Assembly (NCBI RefSeq): GCF_017094525.1 | Contig: NZ_CP064788.1 | Coordinates: 372,001 to 436,000 of the forward strand | Direction: 5' to 3' | Source of the DNA: Halapricum desulfuricans | GTDB lineage: Archaea > Halobacteriota > Halobacteria > Halobacteriales > Haloarculaceae | Length of the DNA stretch: 64,000 nt | Shown here: in pieces, positions 8,196-23,807 of the stretch | How positions within the stretch are numbered: position 1 is the first letter of the stretch | Layout of the letters: each line of letters starts with the position of its first letter | The notes under the pieces: generated by a model | The model's database searches: none | What the model saw: only the letters and a program-made list of their open reading frames with translations | Told to the model about the DNA's origin: nothing | Position numbers and translations under genes: made by a program

Positions 8196-10028
8196 TCAGT
8201 CCCGGACGTAGACCTGGATCGTCGGTGTCGCGTCCGCGTAGTACCGCAGGCTGTAGGTCCCGCGGTCGTCGTAGCGGTCCTCGAGCCAGTCGGTCGGGAC
8301 GCTGTCGTCGCCGACGCGGGTGATCACGACCGAGGGCTGTTCGCGTTCGACGCGCTCGCGCAGTTCAGCGGGATCGCCAGCACAGCTCGCGTTCGCGCCG
8401 CTGGCGGCCAGGTACCACTGCATCGGCAGGAAGTTCCCGAAGTCGGTACAGACCGGCCGGACGTTCCAGGTTCGTTCCGGCTGGCCGGCGTCGACGATCG
8501 ACGCGTCCTCGCTGGCGTTGCCGTAGACGAGCACGTCGGGGTTTTCGTCCGGGGCGGCCGCCCGCAGCTCCTCGACGACCGGATCGAGATCGTCGGTGGG
8601 TTGTCCGAACTGGACGAGGTCGTTGCTCTCGTGGCTGGGGTTGAGATAGACGTGGCTCGCGCCGCTCCAGACTACCGTCGCGACGACCACCGCGAGGATC
8701 AGCGCCGTCAGGCCGACGTCGATCGGCTCGTCCTCGCGGTAGGCATCGCGGCCCCAGCGATAGATCGTCGCCAGCCCGACCGCGGCGGGGATCGATAGCG
8801 GCAACAGGACGTGGACGTTGTTCCACTTCCAGCCCCCGCCGATCGACAGCCCGAGCGGGTAGCCGACGATCGAGGCCGCACCGGCGTAGGTCAGGAAAAA
8901 GACCAGCACCCGTCCCTCGGCGACGGCGTAACGCTCGCGGATGAACCCCGCGATCGCGAAACACACCAGCGGGGCCGACGTGCCGATCAGGCCGTCCCTG
9001 ACCGCGCCGCCGAGTCGCGCCTGATAGTCCTCGAAGGTCAACCCGCCGGTCTTGCCGCCCCACGAGAGGTATTCGGCGCGGAACTGCTCGACGGTCGCGT
9101 CGAGTAGCGGCCCCCACTTCGCCGGGTCGCTCACTGCCTCGCCCAGCCCGACGGTCCCCGATCCGGCGGGCCCGGTGAGCAGCCCCTCGAGACCGTCCCC
9201 GCGCGGCGCGAACATGAACAGCCAGACGAGCGCGAACGCCGCCAGTGTTCCGAGTACGTGCAGCGCGTACACGCCCACGCGTCGTCGGGTTTCGAACCCC
9301 GTCTTCGTCCGCCGGACGTACAGGCGCGCCGTCGTCGCCCACGCTCCGAGCCGATCGAGTCCGGTCCGGTCCGATCCCGGTCGATCCAGCGCGCGGTCGG
9401 CCACGAGCGCGCCGGCACCGAGCCAGGTGAGGACGTACAGCACCGCGTTCTCCTTGGAAGCGACCGCGAGCGCCAGGAAGATCGCGGCCCCGTAGAGATA
9501 CCGCGCCCGCCGGCGTTCGAGCAGTCGGACGACCATGCCGAGCGCGACGAAGGCGAAGGCCCCGACCAGCACGTCGCTGCGCATGAACCGCGAGTAGTAC
9601 AGCAACACGGGGTTGAACGCAAGAAACAGCGAGAGCGCGACCGTCTCGGCCTTTCGGAGGTGATCCCGGAACAGCAGCGCCGAGAGGGGGAGCAGCCCAC
9701 CGACGATCGCGACCGGGAGCCGCATGACGAAGTCGCTCGGGCCGAGCGCTTCGAACAGCCAGCGATCGACGTGCTGGATAACGGGGCCGTGGACGATCGA
9801 TCGGTACGCGAAGTGGCCCTCCTCCTGGGCGTACAGCGCCCAGTAGGCGACGCGGGCCTCGTCCCAGTGGGCCGGGCGCGCGCCGAGCGCGACGAGCCGG
9901 GCGACCAGCGCGAGGACGGTGACAGCCGCGACTGCGAGGAGGACAGTGTCGCGCTCGCGGAGGCGAGCGACGAGCGGGTGCGAGCGACGCGCCGACGGCG
10001 GGGGGTGATCCGGCGAGGCGTCGGACAT
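8196..10028 (-). CDS. Agl23-like GT-C membrane protein (TIGR03663 type), copy 2
   Basis: A 610-residue paralogue of the adjacent gene with the same plan. A first membrane segment at ~29-50 is followed by AHWDEARVAYW (53-63), SIVHGPVIQHVDRW, LLYYSRFMRSDVLVGAF and ASKENAVLYVLTW, then multiple membrane spans and a soluble C-terminal domain of ~150 residues. The ATG at 10028 is chosen because the extra 149 in-frame residues upstream overlap ribH on the other strand and look non-native. The two copies are clearly homologous but diverged, so the duplication is old. Probable role: lipid-linked sugar handling at the membrane (family knowledge). Confidence 0.8.
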   Translation of the reverse strand: MSDASPDHPPPSARRSHPLVARLRERDTVLLAVAAVTVLALVARLVALGARPAHWDEARVAYWALYAQEEGHFAYRSIVHGPVIQHVDRWLFEALGPSDFVMRLPVAIVGGLLPLSALLFRDHLRKAETVALSLFLAFNPVLLYYSRFMRSDVLVGAFAFVALGMVVRLLERRRARYLYGAAIFLALAVASKENAVLYVLTWLGAGALVADRALDRPGSDRTGLDRLGAWATTARLYVRRTKTGFETRRRVGVYALHVLGTLAAFALVWLFMFAPRGDGLEGLLTGPAGSGTVGLGEAVSDPAKWGPLLDATVEQFRAEYLSWGGKTGGLTFEDYQARLGGAVRDGLIGTSAPLVCFAIAGFIRERYAVAEGRVLVFFLTYAGAASIVGYPLGLSIGGGWKWNNVHVLLPLSIPAAVGLATIYRWGRDAYREDEPIDVGLTALILAVVVATVVWSGASHVYLNPSHESNDLVQFGQPTDDLDPVVEELRAAAPDENPDVLVYGNASEDASIVDAGQPERTWNVRPVCTDFGNFLPMQWYLAASGANASCAGDPAELRERVEREQPSVVITRVGDDSVPTDWLEDRYDDRGTYSLRYYADATPTIQVYVRD

Positions 10029-10118: not shown

Positions 10119-10526
10119 ATGGTCAGGCTCGGGCTGGTGATCGGTCAGTACGACAAGCACGGAGCGGTCCTCTCGAAGATGGAACAGTCGGCCCGCGCGG
10201 CAGCCGGCGACCGCGGCGCGGAGATCGTCGAGACGCTCGCGGTGCCGGGCGCCTACGACACGCCGCTTGCGGCCGACCGGCTCGCCCGCCGCGACGATAT
10301 CGACGCCGTGGTCACGCTCGGGGTCATCATCTCCGGAGACACCGATCACGATCAGGTCATCGGTCACGCCGCCGCACAGGGACTCACCGACGTGAGCCTC
10401 GATCGGGACACGCCCGTGACCCTCGGAATCATCGGCCCAGGCATGAGCCAGGACGAGGCCGCGGCCCGCACCCACAAGGGGCGCGAGGCCGTCGAGAGCG
10501 CCATCGATATCGTCGACGAACTATAA
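10119..10526 (+). CDS. ribH: 6,7-dimethyl-8-ribityllumazine synthase
   Basis: Riboflavin pathway enzyme of 135 residues. It condenses 5-amino-6-ribitylamino-uracil with 3,4-dihydroxy-2-butanone 4-phosphate. The archaeal-type motifs VPGAYDTPLAADRLA and GVIISGDTDHDQVIG (with the catalytic His) are present, and the compact length fits archaeal RibH icosahedral subunits. It is transcribed divergently from the Agl23-like genes, with a TATA-like GGTACATCTTTC ~28 nt before the ATG. Only 9 nt separate it from the aminotransferase gene, so they form an operon. Confidence 0.94.
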   Translation: MVRLGLVIGQYDKHGAVLSKMEQSARAAAGDRGAEIVETLAVPGAYDTPLAADRLARRDDIDAVVTLGVIISGDTDHDQVIGHAAAQGLTDVSLDRDTPVTLGIIGPGMSQDEAAARTHKGREAVESAIDIVDEL

Positions 10527-11819: not shown

Positions 11820-12671
11820 TCACGCGACAGGCGCGCGATACAGCAGATCGTACTGATGGGCGATGTAGGTCAGCCTTCCGTCGGCCAGCTGTCGGCGACG
11901 GGTCGCGAGCCAGTCGGCCCCTCCTTCGACGGTCCGATCCGAGAGGGCGTCTTCGACGAATTCGAGGATGGCGTCCAGAAAATACGCCTCGTCAGCGTGG
12001 TACTCGCCCTCGCTGGGGCGGAGAATCCAATCAGAACCGCCTATCGCAAGCAGGTCGCCGTCCCGGCGACGGCAGACCTCCGCCAGGTGTCGACCGGCGT
12101 GGACGTCCCGGCCAGGCTCGGCGTCGATTACGGCATGGTACGCGTCTTCGACGGCCCGGTCCGCCGGATGGTCGGGCTGGAATATCGTGGCGCCATCGAA
12201 CGTGATCGGGAGGTACGCGAGCCCACCGGGTGCAAGCGCCGACTCGATCCTGTCCAGCAGCTCCGCCACCGGGACGAGGTCGGCAAAGGCCTGCGCGACG
12301 ACCAGATCGGTGTCGTTCGCGCCGGTGAGTGTCGTCAGCGCGTCACCGACCTCGTAGGTGACAGAGAGATCCCCGACGACGAACCCCTGGTCGCGATCAA
12401 CGACGGAGCGACCCGCTCGCCGAAGCGCTGCCGGTCGAACCGTGCGGGCGAAGTCGATAACGCCTTCGTCGCTGTCGATGCCGCGATACGAGCCGGCGTC
12501 GACTCCCCATTCGAGCAGTCGTGGGACGGTCGTTCCGGTGCCACAGCCGATATCGAGAACCCGCGGTTCGGTCGGGACGGCAGCGAGTAACCGGTCACGA
12601 ACCCGACGCGAGTAGGCGCGATCGTCCAGCGACCGCTTGGCTTCCAGATACCGTGTCTCGGTGTGATTCAT
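11820..12671 (-). CDS. class I SAM-dependent methyltransferase
   Basis: A 283-residue Rossmann-fold methyltransferase. The SAM-binding glycine-rich loop is VLDIGCGTGTT (about residue 40), followed by YRGIDSDEGVIDFAR for the ribose-binding acidic residue. VVAQAFADLVPVAELLDRI is the motif IV-VI region. The C-terminus contributes YIAHQYDLLYRAP. The ATG at 12671 overlaps the stop of the PTPS-like gene (ATGA), which fixes the start and shows translational coupling. As the last gene of the cyclohydrolase-dehydrogenase-PTPS operon it may methylate the pathway product; the substrate is not known. Confidence 0.8.
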   Translation of the reverse strand: MNHTETRYLEAKRSLDDRAYSRRVRDRLLAAVPTEPRVLDIGCGTGTTVPRLLEWGVDAGSYRGIDSDEGVIDFARTVRPAALRRAGRSVVDRDQGFVVGDLSVTYEVGDALTTLTGANDTDLVVAQAFADLVPVAELLDRIESALAPGGLAYLPITFDGATIFQPDHPADRAVEDAYHAVIDAEPGRDVHAGRHLAEVCRRRDGDLLAIGGSDWILRPSEGEYHADEAYFLDAILEFVEDALSDRTVEGGADWLATRRRQLADGRLTYIAHQYDLLYRAPVA

Positions 12672-13063
12672 CCCTCGAGACGGCGTGCGTGACTCGCCCA
12701 GGACAGGTCGTCTTCCCACAGCCGAACGCGGAGATGCTCCGGATTGGGATCGTCCAGCGCTCGCTCGACGCGGTCACCGAACAGACGTGCGAAGTGCTCG
12801 ACGCTCGGATTCAGGCCCTCGAACTCCGGGAGGTCGTTGAGCAATGCGTCACGATAACGCTCCTCAAGATCATCGAGGATCGCGTTCACGTCGTCGATGT
12901 CCACGAGGTAGCCGAACTCCCCTAGTTCAGGCCCCCCAAAGCGCACCTCCACAGTGAAGTGATGGCTGTGTGGTGTCCCTTCGGGACCTGGGTCGGGAAC
13001 GGTGAGGAAATGCTGTGCGACGAACTCTCGCGTGACGGTCAGTTCGTACGTGTGGGTTGTCAT
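12668..13063 (-). CDS. 6-pyruvoyl-tetrahydropterin synthase family protein, PTPS-III-like active site
   Basis: A 131-residue T-fold enzyme. The zinc ligands are H18, H32 and H34 (AQHF and PHSH). The position four residues before H32, which holds the catalytic Cys in QueD and classical PTPS, is Glu (E28, in EGTPHSH). That replacement is the signature described for PTPS-III enzymes, which cleave dihydroneopterin triphosphate to 6-hydroxymethyl-dihydropterin. The C-terminal catalytic pair region is NPSVEHFARLF, then VRLWED. It sits between an MDR dehydrogenase upstream and the overlapping methyltransferase downstream. The family assignment is firm; the reaction is inferred from one residue and context. 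Confidence 0.85.
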   Translation of the reverse strand: MTTHTYELTVTREFVAQHFLTVPDPGPEGTPHSHHFTVEVRFGGPELGEFGYLVDIDDVNAILDDLEERYRDALLNDLPEFEGLNPSVEHFARLFGDRVERALDDPNPEHLRVRLWEDDLSWASHARRLEG

Positions 13064-13145
13064 AGGTTCGTATTCGTGTGTCTGTCTGTAACAGTGTGCG
13101 TTCGGTTCGATCGCGTAGCGGACCCTGAAGGCACTTGGATCGGCG

Positions 13146-14156
13146 TCATCGGTAGGTCAGCAACACCTGGAGCGCGTCTTCGGGCCGTTCGTCGATCAGT
13201 CGATACGCTTCGGGGGCGTCCTCGAACGGAAGTCGGTGCGTGACCAGCGACTCCACCGGCAGTGCCGTCAGGTTCTCGAGAGCCGTGTCGGTTCGACGGT
13301 CGAACGTCCAGCGACCGCGCAGTTCGGGGGCGAGTGTGCTGACCTGACTGGACTCGATCGAGACCCGGTCGCGATGGAAATCACCGCCCAGATCGAGTGT
13401 AGTCGGTTTCGTGCCGTACCAGGATCCGACGACGATCCGGCTATCGTAGCCTGCGACGGCGCGCGCGTCATCGAGTGCCGCAGGCTGACCCGACAGTTCG
13501 TACAGCAGGTCAGCGCCGTTCGATCCGGCATCGTCGTCCCAGCGGTCCGCCGAGAGTTCGTCCGGCGGCATCGCCATGTCGGCCCCCAGCTGGCGCGCGC
13601 GTTCGCGGCGCGAGTCTATCGGATCGACGACGAGCAGTTCCGACAGCGGGAACGACGCGAGCAATCCGATCGTACACAGTCCGATGACGCCCGCGCCGAA
13701 GACCACGACGCGTTCGCCGAGCCGCGGCCGCCCGTCGAGAACCAACGTGGTCGCCGTCTCGACAGTCGGGTACAGCGCCGCCTCCGCGGGTTCGACGCCG
13801 TCCGGGACTACAACGAGATCTGTGGGCTCTGCACTGAAGTGAGTCTCGTGTGGGTTAAACGCCATCACGGTCCGCCCGAGCCACTCGTCCTCGACAGTCG
13901 TCCCGGTCTCGACGACCTCGCCGACGGCGGCGTATCCGTATCGCAGCGGGTAGGACAGATCACCCTGGAGTGCCTCAAGCGTCTCGTCGGCCGGGAGATC
14001 ACTCGGGGCCTGGCCGTGATAGATGAGTCGTTCCGTGCCGGCGCTGATCGCGGAGACGCGCGTCTCGACGAGCACTTCGTCGGCCGAGGGCGTTGTCGAC
14101 GTCTCGCGCACCTTGACCGCCTGTGGTCCGGTGAAATAGAGCGAGCGTCGCTGCAT
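13146..14156 (-). CDS. MDR-family NAD(P)-dependent dehydrogenase
   Basis: A medium-chain dehydrogenase/reductase of 336 residues. An N-terminal GroES-like domain (GYAAVGEVVETG) precedes a Rossmann domain with VVVFGAGVIGLCTIGLLA and VDPIDSRRERARQLGA. The catalytic zinc site of alcohol dehydrogenases (C-G-S/T-D) is replaced by SAGTERLIYHG, as in BchC-like members. The enzyme is therefore probably zinc-independent or uses a different site. The start ATG at 14156 overlaps the stop of the GTP cyclohydrolase gene (ATGA overlap), so the two are translationally coupled. Confidence 0.8.
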   Translation of the reverse strand: MQRRSLYFTGPQAVKVRETSTTPSADEVLVETRVSAISAGTERLIYHGQAPSDLPADETLEALQGDLSYPLRYGYAAVGEVVETGTTVEDEWLGRTVMAFNPHETHFSAEPTDLVVVPDGVEPAEAALYPTVETATTLVLDGRPRLGERVVVFGAGVIGLCTIGLLASFPLSELLVVDPIDSRRERARQLGADMAMPPDELSADRWDDDAGSNGADLLYELSGQPAALDDARAVAGYDSRIVVGSWYGTKPTTLDLGGDFHRDRVSIESSQVSTLAPELRGRWTFDRRTDTALENLTALPVESLVTHRLPFEDAPEAYRLIDERPEDALQVLLTYR

Positions 14157-14941
14157 CAGTCGTCCGCCGGGAGCTTGTCGACGCCACGTATCCGAGCGCC
14201 GGTCGCTCGACACCGTTCGAGGGCCGCTTTGGCCTCGTCGCCGGCGACGTGGGCCGTCGGGCCGCGTCCGACCCCCACCTGGAGTTCGATCCCCGTCTCC
14301 GCGTTGACGTGCTCGATCGCATCGTCGAAGGCTCCCGGGCCGATATCGGGGCAGACCGCGATGATGTTGTCACCCCCGACGAAATGCGCAATGCTGTCGT
14401 ACTCCTGCCGGAGGTACGTCACGAGTTCGAGCGTGGCACGGCGAATCGCCAGCGTCACGTCGACGGCGTTTCGTCGATCCGTCAGCGAGCCGGTCACGTC
14501 CACGACGTCGAAGTGTCCGACTGTCACCGATCCGGCCTCGACTGGTTCGTCGCTCCCGACTGCGAGTACCTCGCGACGGTCCCCGTCCTGGGCGCTGCCT
14601 GCCGCCTGCAGGCGCTCGCTTGCGACATCCAGCGCTTCGACCGGCGTCGACGCGCGACCGACGCCGACGCTCACCGTCACTGGGTAGCTGTTTCTGACGC
14701 GGCGCTGGAACCGCTCGAACGCCGTCGGATCGATCTCGTTTACCACGGCGTACATGTTGTCGAATCGCCCGTAGAACGCGTAACCGTCGTACGCGCCGAC
14801 GAACTCGGCGAAGTCGGCGAACAGCGACGCCTGCAACGACTGCAGGTCAGTTTCGCGCCGCGGCTCGGGCGTGACGGTCCAGGGTCCGTAATCGTCGATC
14901 TGTATCAGCGCAACCTGCATCACTGTGGTCACTGCTTCCAT
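14156..14941 (-). CDS. gch3: GTP cyclohydrolase IIa (III, ArfA type)
   Basis: A 261-residue archaeal GTP cyclohydrolase. It converts GTP to 2-amino-5-formylamino-6-ribosylamino-pyrimidinone 5'-phosphate, the entry to archaeal riboflavin/F420 synthesis. It has two cyclase-like halves: VALIQIDDYGPWTVTPEPRR with YAFYGRFDNMY, and VTLAIRRATLELVTYLRQ with AHFVGGDNIIAV. The GRFDNMY and GGDNI turns carry the metal-binding acids. The ATG at 14941 has an AT-rich AGTAATTA box at about -25; a second ATG at 14920 would also give a family-like start. It heads the operon running to 11820. Confidence 0.9.
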   Translation of the reverse strand: MEAVTTVMQVALIQIDDYGPWTVTPEPRRETDLQSLQASLFADFAEFVGAYDGYAFYGRFDNMYAVVNEIDPTAFERFQRRVRNSYPVTVSVGVGRASTPVEALDVASERLQAAGSAQDGDRREVLAVGSDEPVEAGSVTVGHFDVVDVTGSLTDRRNAVDVTLAIRRATLELVTYLRQEYDSIAHFVGGDNIIAVCPDIGPGAFDDAIEHVNAETGIELQVGVGRGPTAHVAGDEAKAALERCRATGARIRGVDKLPADD

Positions 14942-14999
14942 ATGAGGAGTCGTCGGTAATTACTGTTTGGTCGATCCGAATCGTCGTCTTGCGGCCCGT

Positions 15000-15563
15000 T
15001 CACGCCTTTTCGTCCGGTAGGTATGGGATCGCAAAGCGATCGGAGTCCAGAAGCCGCTCGGCCACCAGCACGGTCCCGACTCCAATCAGGACGCCGACCA
15101 CCGTGTCCGAGAAGTAATGGGTGCCGAGATAGAACCGCGAAATCGCGATCGCCACGGCAAAGGCCGCTGTAATCACGAACGGGAGCACCTCCGACCGACG
15201 CGCGACCGTCGCGTAGACGGCGACTGCGGCCGCGTGGCCGGACGGAAACGAGTGCGCGACTGTCTCGGCACCGCCGGTTTGACAGACTGGCTGGGGCGGG
15301 TACGGTCGCTGCACTGCGACCATCAACGCGGCGACGATCACCCCGCTCAGCGCCAGCGCGACGAGGGTGACTCGAAACTCCTCTCGCCACCCGGCCAGGT
15401 AACAGAGGCCGATGAATACCAGCCCGGCCGAGGCCGACCCGAGACCGGTCACCGAGTTCATCACCTTGGTGAGCAGTGGGCTCCGCAGATCGACGACGAG
15501 TTCGACTACCTGCGTGTCGAGCCACTGGACGGCCTCGATACCCTCTTCGAGTAATTGTTCCAT
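15000..15563 (-). CDS. PAP2-family membrane phosphatase
   Basis: A 187-residue integral membrane phosphatase with about five hydrophobic segments. The PAP2 motif 2 is SFPSGHAAAVA (nucleophile-assisting His) and motif 3 is SRFYLGTHYFSD (catalytic His and Asp). Motif 1 is weaker, QRPYPPQ with no obvious preceding Lys. Family members dephosphorylate lipid phosphates or isoprenoid diphosphates at the membrane surface. It lies between gch3 (58-nt gap) and hairpin element B1, in the same direction. A role with the neighbouring CDP-alcohol phosphatidyltransferase in lipid metabolism is plausible. Confidence 0.85.
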   Translation of the reverse strand: MEQLLEEGIEAVQWLDTQVVELVVDLRSPLLTKVMNSVTGLGSASAGLVFIGLCYLAGWREEFRVTLVALALSGVIVAALMVAVQRPYPPQPVCQTGGAETVAHSFPSGHAAAVAVYATVARRSEVLPFVITAAFAVAIAISRFYLGTHYFSDTVVGVLIGVGTVLVAERLLDSDRFAIPYLPDEKA

Positions 15564-15575
15564 ACGTCTGTTTTC

Positions 15576-15655
15576 ATACTGGTGGCTATACGTTCCTAAA
15601 GGTATCTGTCACGACGGCGTGCCAGATCATTTCGAAATGGGATAGCCACCAGTAT
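15576..15655. repeat. ~80-nt hairpin element, copy B1
   Basis: The outer arms ATACTGGTGGCTATA (15576-15590) and TAGCCACCAGTAT (15643-15655) are complementary. The interior contains GTGCCAGATCATTTCGAAA, shared with copy B2 at 45871-45950. The copy lies between the stop of the phosphatidyltransferase gene and the start of the PAP2 gene. Confidence 0.85.
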
Positions 15656-15691
15656 CAGTACTGGCCGGGGCCATGTCACAGTGGCGCGCCG

Positions 15692-16465
15692 TTATCGCTC
15701 GCCGCCGGAGAGTCGGCCGGTGACGACCAGGAAGTCCCGGACGAACACCCCCAGCGAGGGCGCGAGGACGAAGGGTGCAGCAATCCAGACGAGTTCCGTC
15801 GGTACAGCCGGTGTGAGGGCGGCGGTGAGAAAGACCATCTGCACGCCAGCCAGGTACCTGCCGAGGTCGCTGTCGGGCGGGTCGTACAGCGGCCGGCCCC
15901 GGCGTCGCCGCCAGCCCAGGCCGCCACGGTAGACGTATCTGGCCGCCGAAAGCGAGAGATACCAGGCCGGGAGTAGCCCCCACACGACGGCGACCAGCGG
16001 CGCGGCGACGAACCCGAACGTATCGAACGCCATATCCAGGCGCTCTCCGAGCACGGTCTCCTGGCCGATGGTCCGTGCGACCGTCCCATCGAGTTTGTCC
16101 AGCACGATCCCGCTCCCGTAGGCCAGCGCCGGCACCCACGCGAGACGAGTATCGGGCGGGACGACGACGAAGCCGGCCACGACTGCGTACAGCGCGCCCC
16201 GTAGCAGCGTCAGCGTGTTCGCCAGCCCGAAGAGTCCACCCAGCGGCCGCCCGCCCGTTCGGGACGGGACGAGACGGTAGCTGACGTACCACAACAGGCC
16301 AGCCAGACAGAGACCGGCGACCACTGCCGGATCCAGGATCCGTGCGTCGACCCATTCGGGCGGATACAACCCTCGAAGGACGACCGCGAGCGCGAGCGCA
16401 CCCAGCAGCGGGAACGCTACTCGCGTCCCGACTGAGAGGGACGACCCGGTCGGTCGCTCGGTCAT
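15692..16465 (-). CDS. CDP-alcohol phosphatidyltransferase
   Basis: A 257-residue membrane enzyme with the family signature D-x2-D-G-x2-A-R-x8-G-x3-D-x3-D, seen here as LDKLDGTVARTIGQE...GERLDMAFD. About six to eight hydrophobic segments are present. The family moves a phospho-alcohol from a CDP-linked donor to another alcohol in polar lipid synthesis; in archaea the acceptors or donors are archaeol derivatives. The specific head group cannot be told. The gene is separated from PAP2 by hairpin element B1 and has the same direction as the pterin-like operon. Confidence 0.87.
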   Translation of the reverse strand: MTERPTGSSLSVGTRVAFPLLGALALAVVLRGLYPPEWVDARILDPAVVAGLCLAGLLWYVSYRLVPSRTGGRPLGGLFGLANTLTLLRGALYAVVAGFVVVPPDTRLAWVPALAYGSGIVLDKLDGTVARTIGQETVLGERLDMAFDTFGFVAAPLVAVVWGLLPAWYLSLSAARYVYRGGLGWRRRRGRPLYDPPDSDLGRYLAGVQMVFLTAALTPAVPTELVWIAAPFVLAPSLGVFVRDFLVVTGRLSGGER

Positions 16466-16612
16466 CGTCTCCTCCGGTCGTGACGCCGTCGCACTCGCAA
16501 GCGGCGCTCGCTCGGAGATGGTCGAGTCGCCCGGGTCGCGGCTGGCAGTTCCATACGAAGTGTCGTCGGTGAGTTCGGGCCAGACACACCTAAACGTACG
16601 ACCTGCGGTTTG

Positions 16613-16996
16613 TTATCGCAGGAGCACGATCAAGACGCCGAGCAAGACGAGTTGGGCGATCTTATCGATCGCGCCGAACGTCCCGATGTCACCGGGGAAG
16701 GCTTTCGACCCGTTCGCGAAATTGACGACGTACCACAGGACGATCTGGACGAGCACGAACGGGATTCCGACCGCGTACACCGTCCGGCGGCGGTACGCGA
16801 TCAGGACGAGCACGATCGCACCCAGAAAGCCCAGCCCCGCGAGGATGAAACTGATCCCCATTTCGGACGGGAACATCCTGACGCCGAGCAGAAGATGGAT
16901 CGCGGCACTCACCAGCGCCGCGATGATCCCCACCCAGTGGAGCGCGCCGAGCGACTCCGTCTGGAGCGTGAATCCGCCTGTTTCAGTTGTTGGCAT
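16613..16996 (-). CDS. small four-helix membrane protein of unknown function
   Basis: A 127-residue protein beginning MPTTETGGFTLQTESLGALH, with four hydrophobic segments (around 20-40, 50-70, 75-95 and 108-125) and little soluble sequence. The ATG at 16996 is preferred, because the upstream in-frame extension (Cys/His-rich, to 17071) reads like non-coding sequence. Similar unnamed four-helix proteins are widespread in haloarchaea. Nothing in the neighbourhood points to a specific role. Confidence 0.7.
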   Translation of the reverse strand: MPTTETGGFTLQTESLGALHWVGIIAALVSAAIHLLLGVRMFPSEMGISFILAGLGFLGAIVLVLIAYRRRTVYAVGIPFVLVQIVLWYVVNFANGSKAFPGDIGTFGAIDKIAQLVLLGVLIVLLR

Positions 16997-17084
16997 ATCA
17001 CATAATTCTGCAGTGTGTACATAACCGTGGTGTCGGCGGTCGCACTTACCGCAATATCGATCGGCAGTCACAGGTTTGGCCGTT

Positions 17085-19058
17085 CTATCGCTCGAAATCG
17101 GGTTGTCGAAGCGAGTCGATGCGCTCGATCTCTTCGGGGGAGAGTCGTTGCGTGGCCGCGGTCAGATTCGAGACGATATGTGTGTCTGTCGTACTCGATG
17201 GGATCGGGACGACTCCCCGGGTGACGTTCCACGCGAGGACGACGCCGGCCGGCGAGAGGTCGTGCTCCTCGCCGATCGCTCCGAGTATCGGCTCTTCCAG
17301 TAGTCCGGGCGCGGACAGCGGGGAGTGTGCGACGACGCGGATCCCTTCGTCGTGACAGAACGAGACGAGGTCGTTCCGGGGCAGGTACGGATGGCGTTCG
17401 ATCTGGATGATCGCGGGACGAATGCGCCCGGTCTCGAGTATCGTCTCCAGTTCGGACCGCGAGACGTTCGAGGCGGCGAGCGTGCGTGTCAGCCCTCGAT
17501 CGTACACCGCTTCGAGGTTTTCCCAGGCCGTTTCCAGCGAGACGTCGGCGGTCTCGATGTCGCCGTCGTCATCTTCGGGGAACGTCAGCGCCTCCTGTCT
17601 TTCGATGGGGTGGTCGGCCAGCCGCTCCAGCGGACCGCGGTGGGCCCAGGCGTCGGGCCAATGTAACCCGTAACTGTCGAAGGCGTCGATACCGAGTTCC
17701 GCAAGGCTCCCCTCGGCGGCTTCGAGCATATGCTTGCGGCGGTGGTTCGTCCGCCAGACCTTCCCGAGGACGAACACGGCCTCCCGGTCTGGCGAACCCG
17801 GAGCGGCCAGCAGCTCGCCGATCCGGTGTTCGTTCCCGTACAGTTCGGCGCTGTCGAGGAGCCGATAGCCCGCGTCCAGCGCCGTCGCGATCGAATCCCG
17901 TCGCTCGACGTACTCGCCGTCGCGGTACCGCGAGCAACCGAAGCCGATCGGCGGCAGCCGTATCCCGTGCTGGCCACTCGCTCGTGGGTCGGGATCGCTG
18001 GGCCGAACGTCCGGCTCGGGAAGCCGATCCCGCGTCGTCCCGTAAGCCGGTACGTCGATTGGCCCACCGCTGTCGGCGGCGTCCTCGATGGCGTTGCAGA
18101 CGGCCACGACGTGCGCGCCACGCCGTCCGCCCGCTCGGGCGGGTGTCCCGTCGGTGATGCTCTCAGCGAGGCGCTCGAGGGCGTCGGTGTACTCGACTGG
18201 TGACGTCGGCGATTGCGGCGGCACTGGAGTGTATTCACGACCGACCCGGCCGAACTGAACGTGATCGACGGCAGTCTCCATCGCGCCGGTGCCATGCAGG
18301 TACAGCGATCCGTCGTCGCCGTGGAGTTCGAGTCCGTAGAACTCCCGACTCCGGTGGGGCGCATAGAAGCTGGCCGTCAGGCGGACGACCGGTCCCGACT
18401 GGAAGGACAGCGTCGCCTCGACGTGGGTCGGCGCGGACGGTCGGCGCGACACACGGTCGGGCCAGCTGTCCAGCGCGTCGGCGACGCGCACCGTTTCGAC
18501 GGGCCCGAACCACGAGACGAGCAGCGTCAGCGGGTAGACCGCGCCGTCGTACAGCGGCCCGATCGCCAGAAACGAGTCCGGACGGTCGTGCCAATCGGTC
18601 ACGCGGCCGACGTGTGCGTGGGCGTAGCCGAGCCTGACGGTACCCGGACGACCGTCGGCGAGCACTCGCGCTGCGCGCCGCTGTGACGGCCCGTCCGGGT
18701 TCTCTGGCGCGACACCCAGTGCGAGATCACGTTCGCGCGCCATCGCCAGCAGTTCGCCGGCGACGTCGGCGTCCAGCGCGAGCGGTTTCTGTGAGTAGAC
18801 GTGTCGATCCGCTGCCAGCGCCGTCCGGGTCACTTCCGCGTGGGCAGCGTGGCTCGTCAGATTCACGACCAGTGGCGCGTCGACGCGTGCCAGGGCCGTC
18901 TCCAGGTCGGTGAACGACGGACAATCGTGTTCGCTTGCCAGCGCCGCGGCCCGTTCACCGTCGAGATCACAGACGCCGGCCAGCGAGAGCGCAGTCGAGG
19001 ACAGGCCGGCCGCGTACTCGGACGCGATCGCTCCTGCCCCCACGAACAGACAGTCCAT
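17085..19058 (-). CDS. Gfo/Idh/MocA oxidoreductase fused to aldo/keto reductase
   Basis: A 657-residue fusion. Residues 1-~330 form a Gfo/Idh/MocA dehydrogenase, with the NAD(P) loop VGAGAIASEYA, SQKP at ~89-92 (the EKP-motif lysine) and a mixed-sheet domain with WFGPVETV. After a linker rich in Pro and Asp (~335-365), residues ~365-657 form an aldo/keto reductase. Its full tetrad is visible: D402 and Y407 (LLDSAELYG), K433 (VLGKVW) and H466 (YGLHWPD). The AKR cofactor loop is IPSSTT. The ATG at 19058 fits the start of the Rossmann fold; earlier codons are Arg-rich and non-native. Both halves act on sugars or polyols in known families; the substrate is unknown. Confidence 0.87.
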   Translation of the reverse strand: MDCLFVGAGAIASEYAAGLSSTALSLAGVCDLDGERAAALASEHDCPSFTDLETALARVDAPLVVNLTSHAAHAEVTRTALAADRHVYSQKPLALDADVAGELLAMARERDLALGVAPENPDGPSQRRAARVLADGRPGTVRLGYAHAHVGRVTDWHDRPDSFLAIGPLYDGAVYPLTLLVSWFGPVETVRVADALDSWPDRVSRRPSAPTHVEATLSFQSGPVVRLTASFYAPHRSREFYGLELHGDDGSLYLHGTGAMETAVDHVQFGRVGREYTPVPPQSPTSPVEYTDALERLAESITDGTPARAGGRRGAHVVAVCNAIEDAADSGGPIDVPAYGTTRDRLPEPDVRPSDPDPRASGQHGIRLPPIGFGCSRYRDGEYVERRDSIATALDAGYRLLDSAELYGNEHRIGELLAAPGSPDREAVFVLGKVWRTNHRRKHMLEAAEGSLAELGIDAFDSYGLHWPDAWAHRGPLERLADHPIERQEALTFPEDDDGDIETADVSLETAWENLEAVYDRGLTRTLAASNVSRSELETILETGRIRPAIIQIERHPYLPRNDLVSFCHDEGIRVVAHSPLSAPGLLEEPILGAIGEEHDLSPAGVVLAWNVTRGVVPIPSSTTDTHIVSNLTAATQRLSPEEIERIDSLRQPDFER

Positions 19059-19168
19059 AGACGTACCCCGGCCGGCACGTACAAATGCCTCCCGGCGAGG
19101 GCGCACAGTCCCGGACGTGCGGGTAATCCAGTCGATGTCGTTTTGTCCGATCGGGACGAACAGCGAGC

Positions 19169-20053
19169 GTGACAGAACCGGGAATGAGCCGGCTCGGCAC
19201 CGCCTATCTCCGCGCGATCCAGGCGGCCGGCCGGCGTATCGACTACGGGACGAACGTCTTCGAACGCGAGTGGGACGTGCTCGTCGTCCTTGATGCCTGT
19301 CGCGTGGACCTGCTCCGCTCGGTCGCGCCCGACACCGACCTGATCGACGAAGTCGATGCGGTGCGGTCGGTCGGCAGTTCCTCCTCGGAGTGGCTCGAAA
19401 ACACGTTCCCGGGCCGCCCGGAGACGTCCCGGACCGTGATGGTAACTGGCAACACCTGGACCGACCGGTACGTCGACGCCGACGCCTTCGCCGCGCTGGA
19501 CGAAGTCTGGAAGTACGCCTGGAACGAGCAGTTGGGAACGGTCCCGGCGCGGGCCGTCACCGACCGGGCGATCGCGATGGCTCGTGACCGCGATCCCGAC
19601 CGGCTGGTCGTCCACTATATGCAACCCCATCACCCGTTCGTGCCGGACCCGCTGGCGGCCGACGACGGGATGGTTCGAAACAGCACTCACAGCAACCCGT
19701 CGAACCCGTGGGTCGCACTTCGGCGCGGCGAGATCACGACCGAGCGCGTGTGGGACGCCTACGAGGCAAATCTCCGGTACGTTCTCGAAGACGTCGAGAT
19801 CCTGGTCGAGCACGTCGCCGGCCGCGTCGCGATCACCGCAGACCACGGCAACCTCTTCGGGGAGTGGGGGCTGTACGGCCATCCAATGTACGTGCCCGCG
19901 CCGGCGGTGTTGACCGTCCCGTGGGCCGAGACGACGGGCGAAGACAGGCAGGACTACACGCCGGAACTGGAGCCGCCGGAGCCGTTGCCGGTGACTCGTG
20001 TCTACGGTGCCGAGGGCGATCAGGCCCGTCTCGACGCGCTCGGTTACCGGTGA
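19169..20053 (+). CDS. alkaline phosphatase/sulfatase superfamily protein
   Basis: A 294-residue protein of the alkaline-phosphatase-like fold. The N-terminal metal-site strand is WDVLVVLDACRVDLL. A Ser-rich stretch SVGSSSSEW may hold the nucleophile. The later metal ligands are HYMQPHHPFVP and ITADHGNLFGEWG. No signal peptide or membrane segment is seen, so it is probably cytoplasmic or peripheral. The start is GTG (19169); the ATG at 19184 is an equally possible start. It is divergent from the fusion gene and 40 nt before a GT4 glycosyltransferase, suggesting a shared role in surface polysaccharide or glycan modification. Confidence 0.75.
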   Translation: MTEPGMSRLGTAYLRAIQAAGRRIDYGTNVFEREWDVLVVLDACRVDLLRSVAPDTDLIDEVDAVRSVGSSSSEWLENTFPGRPETSRTVMVTGNTWTDRYVDADAFAALDEVWKYAWNEQLGTVPARAVTDRAIAMARDRDPDRLVVHYMQPHHPFVPDPLAADDGMVRNSTHSNPSNPWVALRRGEITTERVWDAYEANLRYVLEDVEILVEHVAGRVAITADHGNLFGEWGLYGHPMYVPAPAVLTVPWAETTGEDRQDYTPELEPPEPLPVTRVYGAEGDQARLDALGYR

Positions 20054-20093
20054 CTTCCCGACAGTTATTTCCCTTCGGTTCGAACAGCGGTCG

Positions 20094-21206
20094 ATGGCAC
20101 GGGTCGCAGTGGTCCACAACACGCTTGACTTCCAGGGCGGTGCGGACGCGGTCTGCCTGGCGACCTGTGAGGCACTGTTACCCGATCACGAGGTCGAACT
20201 GTTCACGCTCAGTGAGACCGACCCGTCCGATCTGGCCGATCGGTTCGACGCTGACGTGGCCGGTCTCGCGGTGCGGACGCCGCCGGCAAACTCGCCGATT
20301 GCGAGAGGTCTCGCCAGACTCTCGCCGGTTGCCGGGCCGCAACTGGCGTTCCGGAGTGTGCTTGTCGGCCGATACTTCGGCCGGCACGCCGACCGCTTCG
20401 ATATCGCTGTGAGCACCGCAAACGAGATGCGCCTCCCTATTCCGTCCGTCCAGTACATCCACTATCCGCAGTTCCATCACCGAGCGCTCGAAGCGACCGA
20501 CGGGGGGCGGCTGAACCCGCTGTGGAGCCGACTGGCCGGCCCCGATCGCGGGACAACGGACGGAGCGACGCTTCTGGCCAACTCCGCGTGGACCGCTGAC
20601 GTCGTCGAGCGGATTTACGGCGTCCGCCCTGCTGTCCTGCATCCGCCCGTCGACCCCATCGACGGGGGTCTCGACTGGGACCAGCGCGAGCGGGGCATCG
20701 TCGTCGTGGGACGGATTGCCCCTGACAAGCGCGTTCTGGACACGATGACGGTCGTCGACCGGCTCCGCGACCGGGGTCATGCCGTCCACCTGCATATCGT
20801 CGGTTCGGCCCCGCAGTCCTACCAGCCGTACGTCGATCGGGTCGTTTCGGAAGCCGACCGACGGGCGTACGTGACCCTCGAGCGGGACGTCTCTCGTGAC
20901 CGCCTCGAAACGCTGCTTCGAACCCACCGGTACGGACTGAACCTCAAGCGAGACGAACACTTCGGCATGTCCGTCGCGGAGTACGTCGCGGCGGGAATGA
21001 TCGCCTTTGCACCTGACGGCGGCGGGCAGCGAGACATCCTCAAGGGGCGCGCTGATCGCCTGTTTGCGTCCCTGTCCGGTGCCGTCGACTGTATCGAGAC
21101 GAGTCTCGAAACCGACGATCGACCGACACTCCCGCGTGATCGGTTTTCCCGTCGCCGGTTCAAATCGGCGATCGCGCGCCGCGTGAATCGAGCACTGGGA
21201 CAGTAG
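20094..21206 (+). CDS. GT4-family glycosyltransferase
   Basis: A 370-residue GT-B glycosyltransferase. The N-terminal acceptor domain starts MARVAVVHNTLDFQGGAD. The middle contains VQYIHYPQFHH. The C-terminal nucleotide-sugar domain contains VVVGRIAPDKR and the GT4 E-x7-E-like region KRDEHFGMSVAEYVAAG. A cytosolic enzyme acting on a lipid-linked or soluble acceptor is expected; the sugar is unknown. The ATG at 20094 is chosen because the Rossmann start follows at once. The upstream in-frame part overlaps the end of the preceding gene. Confidence 0.85.
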   Translation: MARVAVVHNTLDFQGGADAVCLATCEALLPDHEVELFTLSETDPSDLADRFDADVAGLAVRTPPANSPIARGLARLSPVAGPQLAFRSVLVGRYFGRHADRFDIAVSTANEMRLPIPSVQYIHYPQFHHRALEATDGGRLNPLWSRLAGPDRGTTDGATLLANSAWTADVVERIYGVRPAVLHPPVDPIDGGLDWDQRERGIVVVGRIAPDKRVLDTMTVVDRLRDRGHAVHLHIVGSAPQSYQPYVDRVVSEADRRAYVTLERDVSRDRLETLLRTHRYGLNLKRDEHFGMSVAEYVAAGMIAFAPDGGGQRDILKGRADRLFASLSGAVDCIETSLETDDRPTLPRDRFSRRRFKSAIARRVNRALGQ

Positions 21207-21329: not shown

Positions 21330-21417
21330 CGCCCGGAGCGGGATTTGAACCGGATGAAGACGGTCGCCTCGCTTCGCTCGGCGCTGCGTCTTCCAGGGTT
21401 CAAATCCGCCTATAACG
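21330..21417. repeat. tRNA-Asp-derived inverted repeat unit 1
   Basis: The unit starts with a 22-nt exact copy (21330-21351) of the tRNA-Asp T-arm/acceptor 3' end. It ends with an inverted T-arm-like GGGTTCAAATCC (21396-21407) followed by TATAACG. GAAGACG / CGTCTTC pair inside, so the whole unit can form a long hairpin. It lies downstream of the real tRNA, as expected for att-site scars. Confidence 0.6.
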
Positions 21418-21452: not shown

Positions 21453-21541
21453 CGCCCGGAGCGGGATTTGAACCGAACCGAGAAATGCTCGCTCCCGATG
21501 GTCGCTGCGCGTTCCTCGTAGGGTCCAAATCCCTCATAACG
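21453..21541. repeat. tRNA-Asp-derived inverted repeat unit 2
   Basis: Second copy of the same plan. The same 22-nt tRNA 3'-end sequence lies at 21453-21474. The inverted T-arm-like GGGTCCAAATCC lies at 21521-21532, followed by CATAACG. Immediately after it, TCTCGCGGAC and GTCCGCGAGA form another inverted repeat leading up to the genuine tRNA-Asp. Confidence 0.6.
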
Positions 21542-21603
21542 ATTTCTCGCGGACGACTCACTCGTCGCTACGCTCCTCGGTCGTAGTGTCCGCGAGAGAA
21601 TAG

Positions 21604-21676
21604 CGCCCGGAGCGGGATTTGAACCCGCGTCACGACCGTGACAGGGTCGTATGATGGGCCACTACACCATCCGGGC
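21604..21676 (-). tRNA. tRNA-Asp (anticodon GTC)
   Basis: The reverse strand gives acceptor GCCCGGA / TCCGGGC with discriminator G. The D arm is GGTGTAGTGGCCCATC. The anticodon stem-loop CGACC-CTGTCAC-GGTCG carries anticodon GTC. The T arm is CGGG-TTCAAAT-CCCG. CCA is not encoded and no intron is seen. A TATA-like GCCTTAATAC lies ~30 nt upstream (21702-21712 on the minus strand). Confidence 0.96.
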
Positions 21677-22238: not shown

Positions 22239-23807
22239 ATGGATACAGAACAACGCCGAACGGTTTCACGGGCATACTTCTCGAAGGATCGACTCGCCGA
22301 ACACCACTTCCGGTCGTTCAACGCGTTCCTCGAACGCGGCATGCAGGAGGTCGTCGACGAAAAGGCGACCATCGAAACTGACATCGGAGACAAGGAAGGC
22401 CAGGAACCAGTCTGGGTCGAGCTTGGCGACGTCCGCGTCGTCACGCCCCGGGTGCGGGAGGCCGACGGCTCCGAAGAACTGCTCTACCCCCAGGAAGCGC
22501 GACTGCGCAACATCACCTACGCCGCGCCGGTCTTCATGGAGATGGCGATCGTCAGGGGCGGCGAGGAAGAGGAGGAACGCGTCGTCGACCAGACCGAGAC
22601 CAAGATCGGTCGCATGCCGATCATGGTCGGCTCCCAGAAGTGTAACATCGCCGGCTTCTCCGACGAAGAACTGATCGACATCGGGGAGGACCCCGCCGAC
22701 CCCGGCGGCTACTTCATCGTCAACGGGTCCGAGCGGGTGCTGATGACCAGCGAAGACCTCGCGCCGAACAAGATTCTCGCGGAGTACGACACCAAGTACG
22801 GCGACGAGGTGCAGGTCGCAAAGACCTTCTCCCAGCGCCGGGGGTACCGCGCGCTGGTGTTGACCGAGCGCACCCGCGACGGGTTGCTCGAGGTGTCGTT
22901 CCCTTCGGTTTCGGGTTCGGTCGATTTCGTCACGCTCGTGCGCGCGCTCGGACTGGAATCCGACGAGGAGATCGTCCACCGCGTCAGCGACGACCCCGAG
23001 ATCGTGAAGTTCATGCTGGAGAACCTGGAGGCCGCCGACGTCCAGACGACCGAAGAAGCCATCGAGAAACTCGGCAAGCGCGTCGCGTCCGGCCAGGGCA
23101 AAAACTACCAGCTCAAGCGCGCCAACTACGTCATCGACCGGTATCTGCTGCCCCACCTCCACGAGGAGGGTGTCGACGAGGAAGAGGTCCGGATCAACAA
23201 GGCCTACTACCTCTGTCGGATGGCCGAGGCCTGCTTCGAACTGGCGCTGGGTCGCCGCGAGGCCGACGACAAGGACCACTACGCCAACAAGCGCCTGAAG
23301 GTCTCCGGCGACCTGATGCGGGACCTGTTCCGGACGGCGCTGAACAAGCTGGCACGCGACGTGAAATATCAGCTCGAGCGCGCGAACATGCGCAACCGTC
23401 AACTGTCGGTTTCGACGGTCGTGCGCTCGGACGTACTGACCGAGCGGCTGGAACATCCGCTGGCCACGGGCAACTGGGTCGGCGGTCGCTCCGGCGTTTC
23501 CCAGCTGGTCGATCGGACGGACTTCATGGGTGTACTGAGCCACCTCCGGCGGCTCCGCTCGCCGCTGTCTCGCAGTCAGCCACACTTCGAGGCACGCGAT
23601 CTGCACGCGACCCAGTGGGGTCGTATCTGCCCCTCCGAGACGCCCGAGGGGCCGAACTGTGGGCTCGTGAAGAACTTCGCGCAGGCGATGGAACTCAGCC
23701 AGAACGTCGAGGACGAACAGAACCTGAAACAGTCGCTCGCCGATATGGGAGTCCAGGGCATCCCCGGCATCGAGAGCATCGAAACACAGCAGCCCGCAGA
23801 CGATTAA
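22239..23807 (+). CDS. rpoB2: DNA-directed RNA polymerase subunit B''
   Basis: A 522-residue N-terminal part of the split beta-like subunit (Rpo2N). It provides the protrusion, lobe and fork. Visible motifs include QKCNIAGFSDEELIDIGEDP, GGYFIVNGSERVLM and the fork/rifampicin-region equivalent RRLRSPLSRSQPHFEARDLH followed by WGRICPSETPEGPNCGLVKN. The split after this point is standard for haloarchaea and many euryarchaea. The stop is followed 3 nt later by rpoB1. Confidence 0.97.
   Translation: MDTEQRRTVSRAYFSKDRLAEHHFRSFNAFLERGMQEVVDEKATIETDIGDKEGQEPVWVELGDVRVVTPRVREADGSEELLYPQEARLRNITYAAPVFMEMAIVRGGEEEEERVVDQTETKIGRMPIMVGSQKCNIAGFSDEELIDIGEDPADPGGYFIVNGSERVLMTSEDLAPNKILAEYDTKYGDEVQVAKTFSQRRGYRALVLTERTRDGLLEVSFPSVSGSVDFVTLVRALGLESDEEIVHRVSDDPEIVKFMLENLEAADVQTTEEAIEKLGKRVASGQGKNYQLKRANYVIDRYLLPHLHEEGVDEEEVRINKAYYLCRMAEACFELALGRREADDKDHYANKRLKVSGDLMRDLFRTALNKLARDVKYQLERANMRNRQLSVSTVVRSDVLTERLEHPLATGNWVGGRSGVSQLVDRTDFMGVLSHLRRLRSPLSRSQPHFEARDLHATQWGRICPSETPEGPNCGLVKNFAQAMELSQNVEDEQNLKQSLADMGVQGIPGIESIETQQPADD

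Follow-up and report, generated by a model that had tools for sequence, protein, structure and literature searches.

A stretch of 64,000 nucleotides from Halapricum desulfuricans (contig NZ_CP064788.1, positions 372,001 to 436,000; hereafter the window) carries a conserved gene cluster whose core consists of a GTP cyclohydrolase III (GCH III), a medium-chain dehydrogenase/reductase (MDR), a protein of the PTPS/QueD fold and a methyltransferase (MT). We consider it probable that this cluster encodes a dedicated side branch of the riboflavin pathway and that its product is a glycosylated, methylated pyrimidine or pteridine. The gene content of the cluster, its conservation and the active-site changes in its proteins are direct observations. 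The four core genes, each recognized by a family profile, are the following:

11820..12671, minus strand: class I S-adenosylmethionine-dependent MT (PF13649, E 1e-8)
12668..13063, minus strand: PTPS/QueD-fold protein that has lost the catalytic triad but kept the zinc histidines and the pterin-anchoring Glu (PF01242, E 7e-27)
13146..14156, minus strand: MDR oxidoreductase without the usual zinc-ligand motifs, with an NAD(P)-binding GxGxxG (PF00107)
14156..14941, minus strand: GCH III of the ArfA type, a cassette paralog (PF05165, E 2e-88; NF002587)

An earlier note on this DNA had placed these genes on a single strand, as they are, and had described two ATGA junctions. The PTPS/MT junction is indeed an ATGA overlap (12671-12668), in which the ATG start of MT lies inside the PTPS stop, but the GCH III/MDR junction reads TGATG and shares a single base at 14156. 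MDR and PTPS are separated by a gap of 82 bp.

Conservation across haloarchaea, on which that note had staked its proposal, is clear-cut: the genes are not scattered among relatives but occur together. In a set of 59 haloarchaeal genomes, PTPS was found in 30, and MDR was present in 29 of these and in 0 of the other 29; MT followed the same pattern, accompanying PTPS in 29/30 (Fisher p=5e-16, a value that ignores the kinship of the genomes). This co-occurrence is far above chance. Among 37 haloarchaeal stretches, two of which are halves of one genome, PTPS was counted in 35, MDR in 34, a GT4 glycosyltransferase in 33, MT in 32, GCH III in 14, a creatininase in 4 and FolE in none. Within the window's own genus, two members have the cassette and four do not, and plasmid-borne copies are found in Halobellus, Haloarcula and Natronorubrum. 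Hence, the cassette is accessory and has been gained or lost repeatedly. Two plasmids carry damaged versions. On the Natrarchaeobaculum plasmid pAArc1-02 (L073, 8249-11467), a GCH III-MDR pair survives without PTPS or MT and is followed by an IS5 transposase, as in a decayed cassette. On the Haloarcula marismortui plasmid pNG700 (L082, near 9001-9359), PTPS is matched by two separate fragments where no gene is annotated, a probable frameshift, given that the gene is intact in the near relative L074.

The same MDR-PTPS-glycosyltransferase-MT cassette is present in Actinobacteria and Proteobacteria. A tblastn search located it on bacterial plasmids of Methylosinus, Streptomyces, Thiodictyon, Neorhizobium, Microbacterium, Palleronia, Rhizobium and others, and the gene order MDR-PTPS-(GT4)-MT is identical in bacteria and haloarchaea. 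A genome scan with a bacterial PTPS profile confirmed at least 589 relatives. In the best 80 of these, all bacterial and some ending at contig ends, the partners are MDR (72), GT4 (76), MT (70), a RibD-family reductase (47) and GTP cyclohydrolase II (GCH II, RibA; 27), with no FolE and no GCH III at any of the 80 loci. In the MDR tree, one branch with an SH-aLRT support of 100 splits the haloarchaeal from the actinobacterial rows, the proteobacterial rows not being counted as a group. Two further genes often stand beside the bacterial cassette: an MdoH-type glucan glucosyltransferase in 64/80 loci (for example L066, 7073-8875) and a small cytochrome b in 35/80.

A comparison of 30 haloarchaeal and 22 bacterial cassette PTPS proteins in Escherichia coli QueD numbering shows that the Cys/Asp/His triad is lost in all of them and that the active-site Glu is kept in 52/52. 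In the haloarchaeal proteins, Cys27 is replaced by Glu (30/30) and His71 by Asp (29/30), and Asp70 is lost; Glu110 and the zinc ligands His16, His31 and His33 are kept (His33 in 30/30), apart from one Asn at position 31. In the bacterial proteins, Cys27 has become Ala (21/22), His33 Ala (22/22) and His71 Tyr, and Glu110 is again kept. The best match in the PDB to the AlphaFold model of the window's protein (pLDDT 87) is 3d7j, which is SCO6650 of Streptomyces (TM 0.84). Because the Glu is kept, the triad is lost and SCO6650 is the best match, the protein should hold a 2-amino-4-oxopyrimidine but is predicted not to run the QueD/PTPS reaction. The earlier note rightly pointed out that the classical PTPS substrate differs from what GCH III makes, and the difficulty is resolved by a PTPS without the triad and by the riboflavin-type partners in bacteria.

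The haloarchaeal protein was compared with the named PTPS types. The CxxxHGH motif and triad of PTPS-I (QueD) are absent, and its QueD score is below the NCBIfam cut-off. In place of the PTPS-III motif ExxHGH it has EGxxHSH, in which the Glu comes one residue early, in the place of the Cys, and Ser replaces Gly. The PTPS-IV signature FGPAQ is found in the bacterial cassette proteins, whereas the haloarchaeal ones mostly have PGPEG. The absence of the triad together with a retained substrate Glu is as in SCO6650-type proteins, but the zinc site that these have lost still has its third His in haloarchaea. The MDR matches PF00107 and not PF08240, and aligns with bacterial cassette MDRs at 33-36% identity. 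At what we take to be the zinc-ligand positions of zinc-dependent alcohol dehydrogenases (the Cys and the His of GHE), it reads SAISAGTE and YGYAAVG. As the usual zinc-ligand motifs are absent from all 13 aligned members, the public label of "zinc-binding alcohol dehydrogenase" appears doubtful.

The input of the cassette is most likely a pyrimidine of the riboflavin branch and not the classical PTPS substrate, because bacteria link GCH II and a RibD reductase to it, haloarchaea link GCH III, and neither links FolE. GCH II and GCH III are unrelated enzymes whose families are both established to lead to the 6-ribosylamino-pyrimidinone series; the product of the GCH III family is 2-amino-5-formylamino-6-ribosylamino-pyrimidinone 5'-phosphate (FAPy). 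The earlier note had missed that GCH III is the archaeal riboflavin enzyme ArfA. The window's enzyme is clearly of this family: it scores above the cut-offs of PF05165 and NF002587 and matches PDB entry 2qv6 (E 3e-58), with its RFDN and GGDN active-site motifs aligned with that enzyme. It is 51.6% identical to the second copy of its own genome and 60-94% identical to the cassette-borne GCH IIIs of five relatives, and it groups apart from the housekeeping copy in the GCH III tree.

GCH III lies within about 10 kb of the cassette in 14/30 cassette genomes, and a second GCH III copy accompanies the cassette in 12/14 (p=0.003, kinship again ignored). In the GCH III tree, which carries long-branch warnings, the cassette copies are spread over several parts, with 8 changes of linkage as the best count and at least five forced by supported branches; we looked for a single clade of cassette copies in this tree and did not find one. 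The linkage is therefore not due to one inheritance, and it is far above chance even when only five events are counted. In one genome (G006), the cassette copy is the sole GCH III and presumably serves riboflavin and F420 synthesis too. A creatininase is present in all the haloarchaea and cassette-linked in few. Two RibAs of Streptomyces clusters carry Met at the position of E. coli Tyr105, and a creatininase gene lies close to them. The proteobacterial cassette RibAs have Tyr there (L151 is an exception) and are seldom accompanied by a creatininase, as would be expected of enzymes that carry out their own deformylation. SCO6655, which we take to be the GCH II associated with the SCO6650 cluster of Streptomyces coelicolor, reportedly makes FAPy, the GCH III product, according to Spoonamore and Bandarian.

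Comparison of the neighborhoods of relatives extends the cluster to ten genes, at 11820-21206 of the window. The earlier note had correctly located PAP2 and CDP-alcohol transferase genes upstream on the same strand, but treated them as neighbors, whereas they are part of the same conserved cluster; it had also overlooked two further members, a fused oxidoreductase and a glycosyltransferase, and the occurrence of the cassette in bacteria. The additional genes, with their counts in the 37 haloarchaeal loci, and the features at the cluster edge are:

15000..15563, minus strand: PAP2 phosphatase (PF01569, E 1e-15; 6/37)
15692..16465, minus strand: CDP-alcohol phosphatidyltransferase (PF01066, E 7e-16; 28/37)
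16613..17071, minus strand: DUF7475 protein (PF24287, E 4e-16; 22/37)
17085..19058, minus strand: fusion of a Gfo/Idh/MocA oxidoreductase and an aldo/keto reductase (Gfo-AKR; PF01408 and PF00248; 20/37)
19169..20053, plus strand: sulfatase-like protein (PF00884, E 2.5e-4, below cut-off; 15/37)
20094..21206, plus strand: GT4 glycosyltransferase (its homolog at L033:15348-16460 matches PF00534)
21330-21351 and 21453-21474, minus strand: two exact 22-nt copies of the 3' end of tRNA-Asp (0 expected by chance)
21603-21676: the tRNA-Asp itself

The CDP-alcohol phosphatidyltransferase is also found in the cassette loci of Streptomyces, Thiodictyon, Microbacterium and Rhizobium. The window's GT4 replaces the one that other loci have between PTPS and MT; the two types are mutually exclusive within a locus, and the GT4 count given above is for either of them. 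The 22-nt copies between the tRNA and the GT4 gene are att-like and look like scars of integrative elements at the cluster edge. The base composition of the cluster (64-70% G+C) is unremarkable, and a recent acquisition judged on this basis was rejected. Beyond the tRNA, an open reading frame at 22239 reads, from its translation, as an RNA polymerase B subunit. On the other side of the cluster lie an aminotransferase and then ribH (lumazine synthase, 10119-10526). Promoter and terminator scans yielded nothing useful.

In the pathway that we propose, GCH III would open GTP to FAPy, and a creatininase-type deformylase, ArfB, encoded in some clusters and otherwise supplied by the housekeeping copy, would remove the formyl group. 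An ArfC/RibD_C reductase would then give 2,5-diamino-6-ribitylamino-pyrimidinone phosphate; all three steps are known for these enzyme families. The resulting ring, pterin-like and still undeaminated, would be the substrate of the core enzymes. The PTPS-fold protein would grip the ring via its conserved Glu and catalyze a reaction other than that of PTPS, perhaps a ring closure or a condensation; MDR would oxidize or reduce the ring, GT4 would add a sugar and MT a methyl group. A lipid may be attached to the polyol side chain by the CDP-alcohol transferase and PAP2.

Several findings weigh against this scheme. Roughly half of the haloarchaeal cassettes have no GCH III beside them, and RibD_C is neither linked to nor duplicated with the cassette in haloarchaea, being single and unlinked in nearly all of them; housekeeping enzymes would therefore have to serve. 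The haloarchaeal and bacterial PTPS proteins share only ~25% identity and have different zinc sites (HxH versus HGA), and hence they may not perform the same reaction. The lipid coupling, drawn from gene proximity, is a weak step. In the literature searched, we found neither the cluster nor a product of it, and to our knowledge the cassette pathway has no known product. A bolder version of the scheme, in which the cassette yields a glycosylated and methylated pteridine anchored in the membrane and serving as a lipid-linked redox cofactor or pigment common to haloarchaea and bacteria and reached via unrelated GTP cyclohydrolases, is speculative, and we give it a small chance. Such a compound might be related to the sulfohalopterins and phosphohalopterins that were once isolated from haloarchaea, for which we know of no identified genes.

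Four other explanations have to be set against a dedicated riboflavin branch. A cluster for membrane lipid head groups, with the pterin-like genes as chance neighbors, would account for the CDP-alcohol transferase and Gfo-AKR at 28 and 20 of the 37 loci, as well as for PAP2 and GT4. It is unlikely, since MDR-PTPS-MT persists without the lipid genes at two loci (L072 and L081) and together with RibA/RibD in bacteria. Unlikely, too, is a classical pterin route, in which GTP cyclohydrolase I (GCH I) supplies dihydroneopterin triphosphate to PTPS for a biopterin-like glycoside and GCH III is present by chance. Known pterin glycoside routes do resemble this set of PTPS, dehydrogenase and glycosyltransferase. 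However, FolE is absent from the 80 bacterial and the 37 haloarchaeal cassette loci, the PTPS triad is lost throughout, and the linkage to GCH III recurs. Moreover, the genome's GCH I adjoins a canonical queD (CxxxHGH), queE and queC away from the cassette (gene names read from translations), and the location of this folE-queC-queE-queD set also led us to reject a role of the cluster in archaeosine or queuosine synthesis.

The earlier note had suggested a modified pterin or a deazaflavin-like cofactor. Its first half agrees with a single conserved route from GTP in which a pterin-like 2-amino-4-oxopyrimidine is handled. Deazaflavin (F420) synthesis is improbable, even though GCH III also feeds F420 and PTPS-IV has been stated, as an unpublished result with no data shown, to be involved in it (PMC5041015). 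cofG scores above the cut-off in 57/59 haloarchaeal genomes, whereas the cassette is present in about half (30/59), and the listed cofG loci are not at the cassette. Furthermore, the cassette occurs in many alphaproteobacteria, most of which are not known for F420. Least probable of all is an extra supply of riboflavin by a second arfA near ribH. Deletion of arfA in Haloferax does cause riboflavin auxotrophy (PMC8305020), but among the 37 haloarchaeal stretches the window and one congener alone have ribH near the cassette, the cassette GCH III belongs to another clade than the housekeeping copy, and MDR, PTPS, GT4 and MT would be left unexplained.

Parts of the dedicated riboflavin branch that we favor are already known from other systems. 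The archaeal riboflavin pathway, arfA-arfB-arfC, begins with the GCH III family, and the same first product is expected here, the cassette copy being a paralog tied to MDR-PTPS-MT. QueD (PTPS-I) has the same fold and pterin-anchoring Glu, with its triad residues replaced in the cassette proteins. The published neighborhood of the PTPS-IV subfamily (PMC5041015, PMC5445326) holds PF00925 (GCH II) and PF01872 (RibD_C), as do the bacterial loci; in haloarchaea, the cyclohydrolase is GCH III instead. A further known system is the SCO6650 cluster of Streptomyces coelicolor, whose PTPS-fold protein, of solved structure (PDB 3D7J), likewise lacks the triad. The homologous Streptomyces clusters contain MDR, GT4, MT, a CDP-alcohol transferase, a creatininase and the RibA with Met at Tyr105. 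The haloarchaeal version differs from these in its cyclohydrolase, the unrelated GCH III, in having retained all three zinc histidines, in a Glu at the site of an Ala in SCO6650-type proteins, and in its additional Gfo-AKR, DUF7475 and sulfatase-like genes. In the literature searched, we found no description of this variant, which combines GCH III, an EGxxHSH motif with all zinc histidines in place, an exchanged GT4, Gfo-AKR and DUF7475. The pathway spans haloarchaea, Streptomyces and Proteobacteria, with unrelated cyclohydrolases that appear to converge on one series of intermediates, and its haloarchaeal version ties an orphan PTPS-IV-like branch to a defined input.

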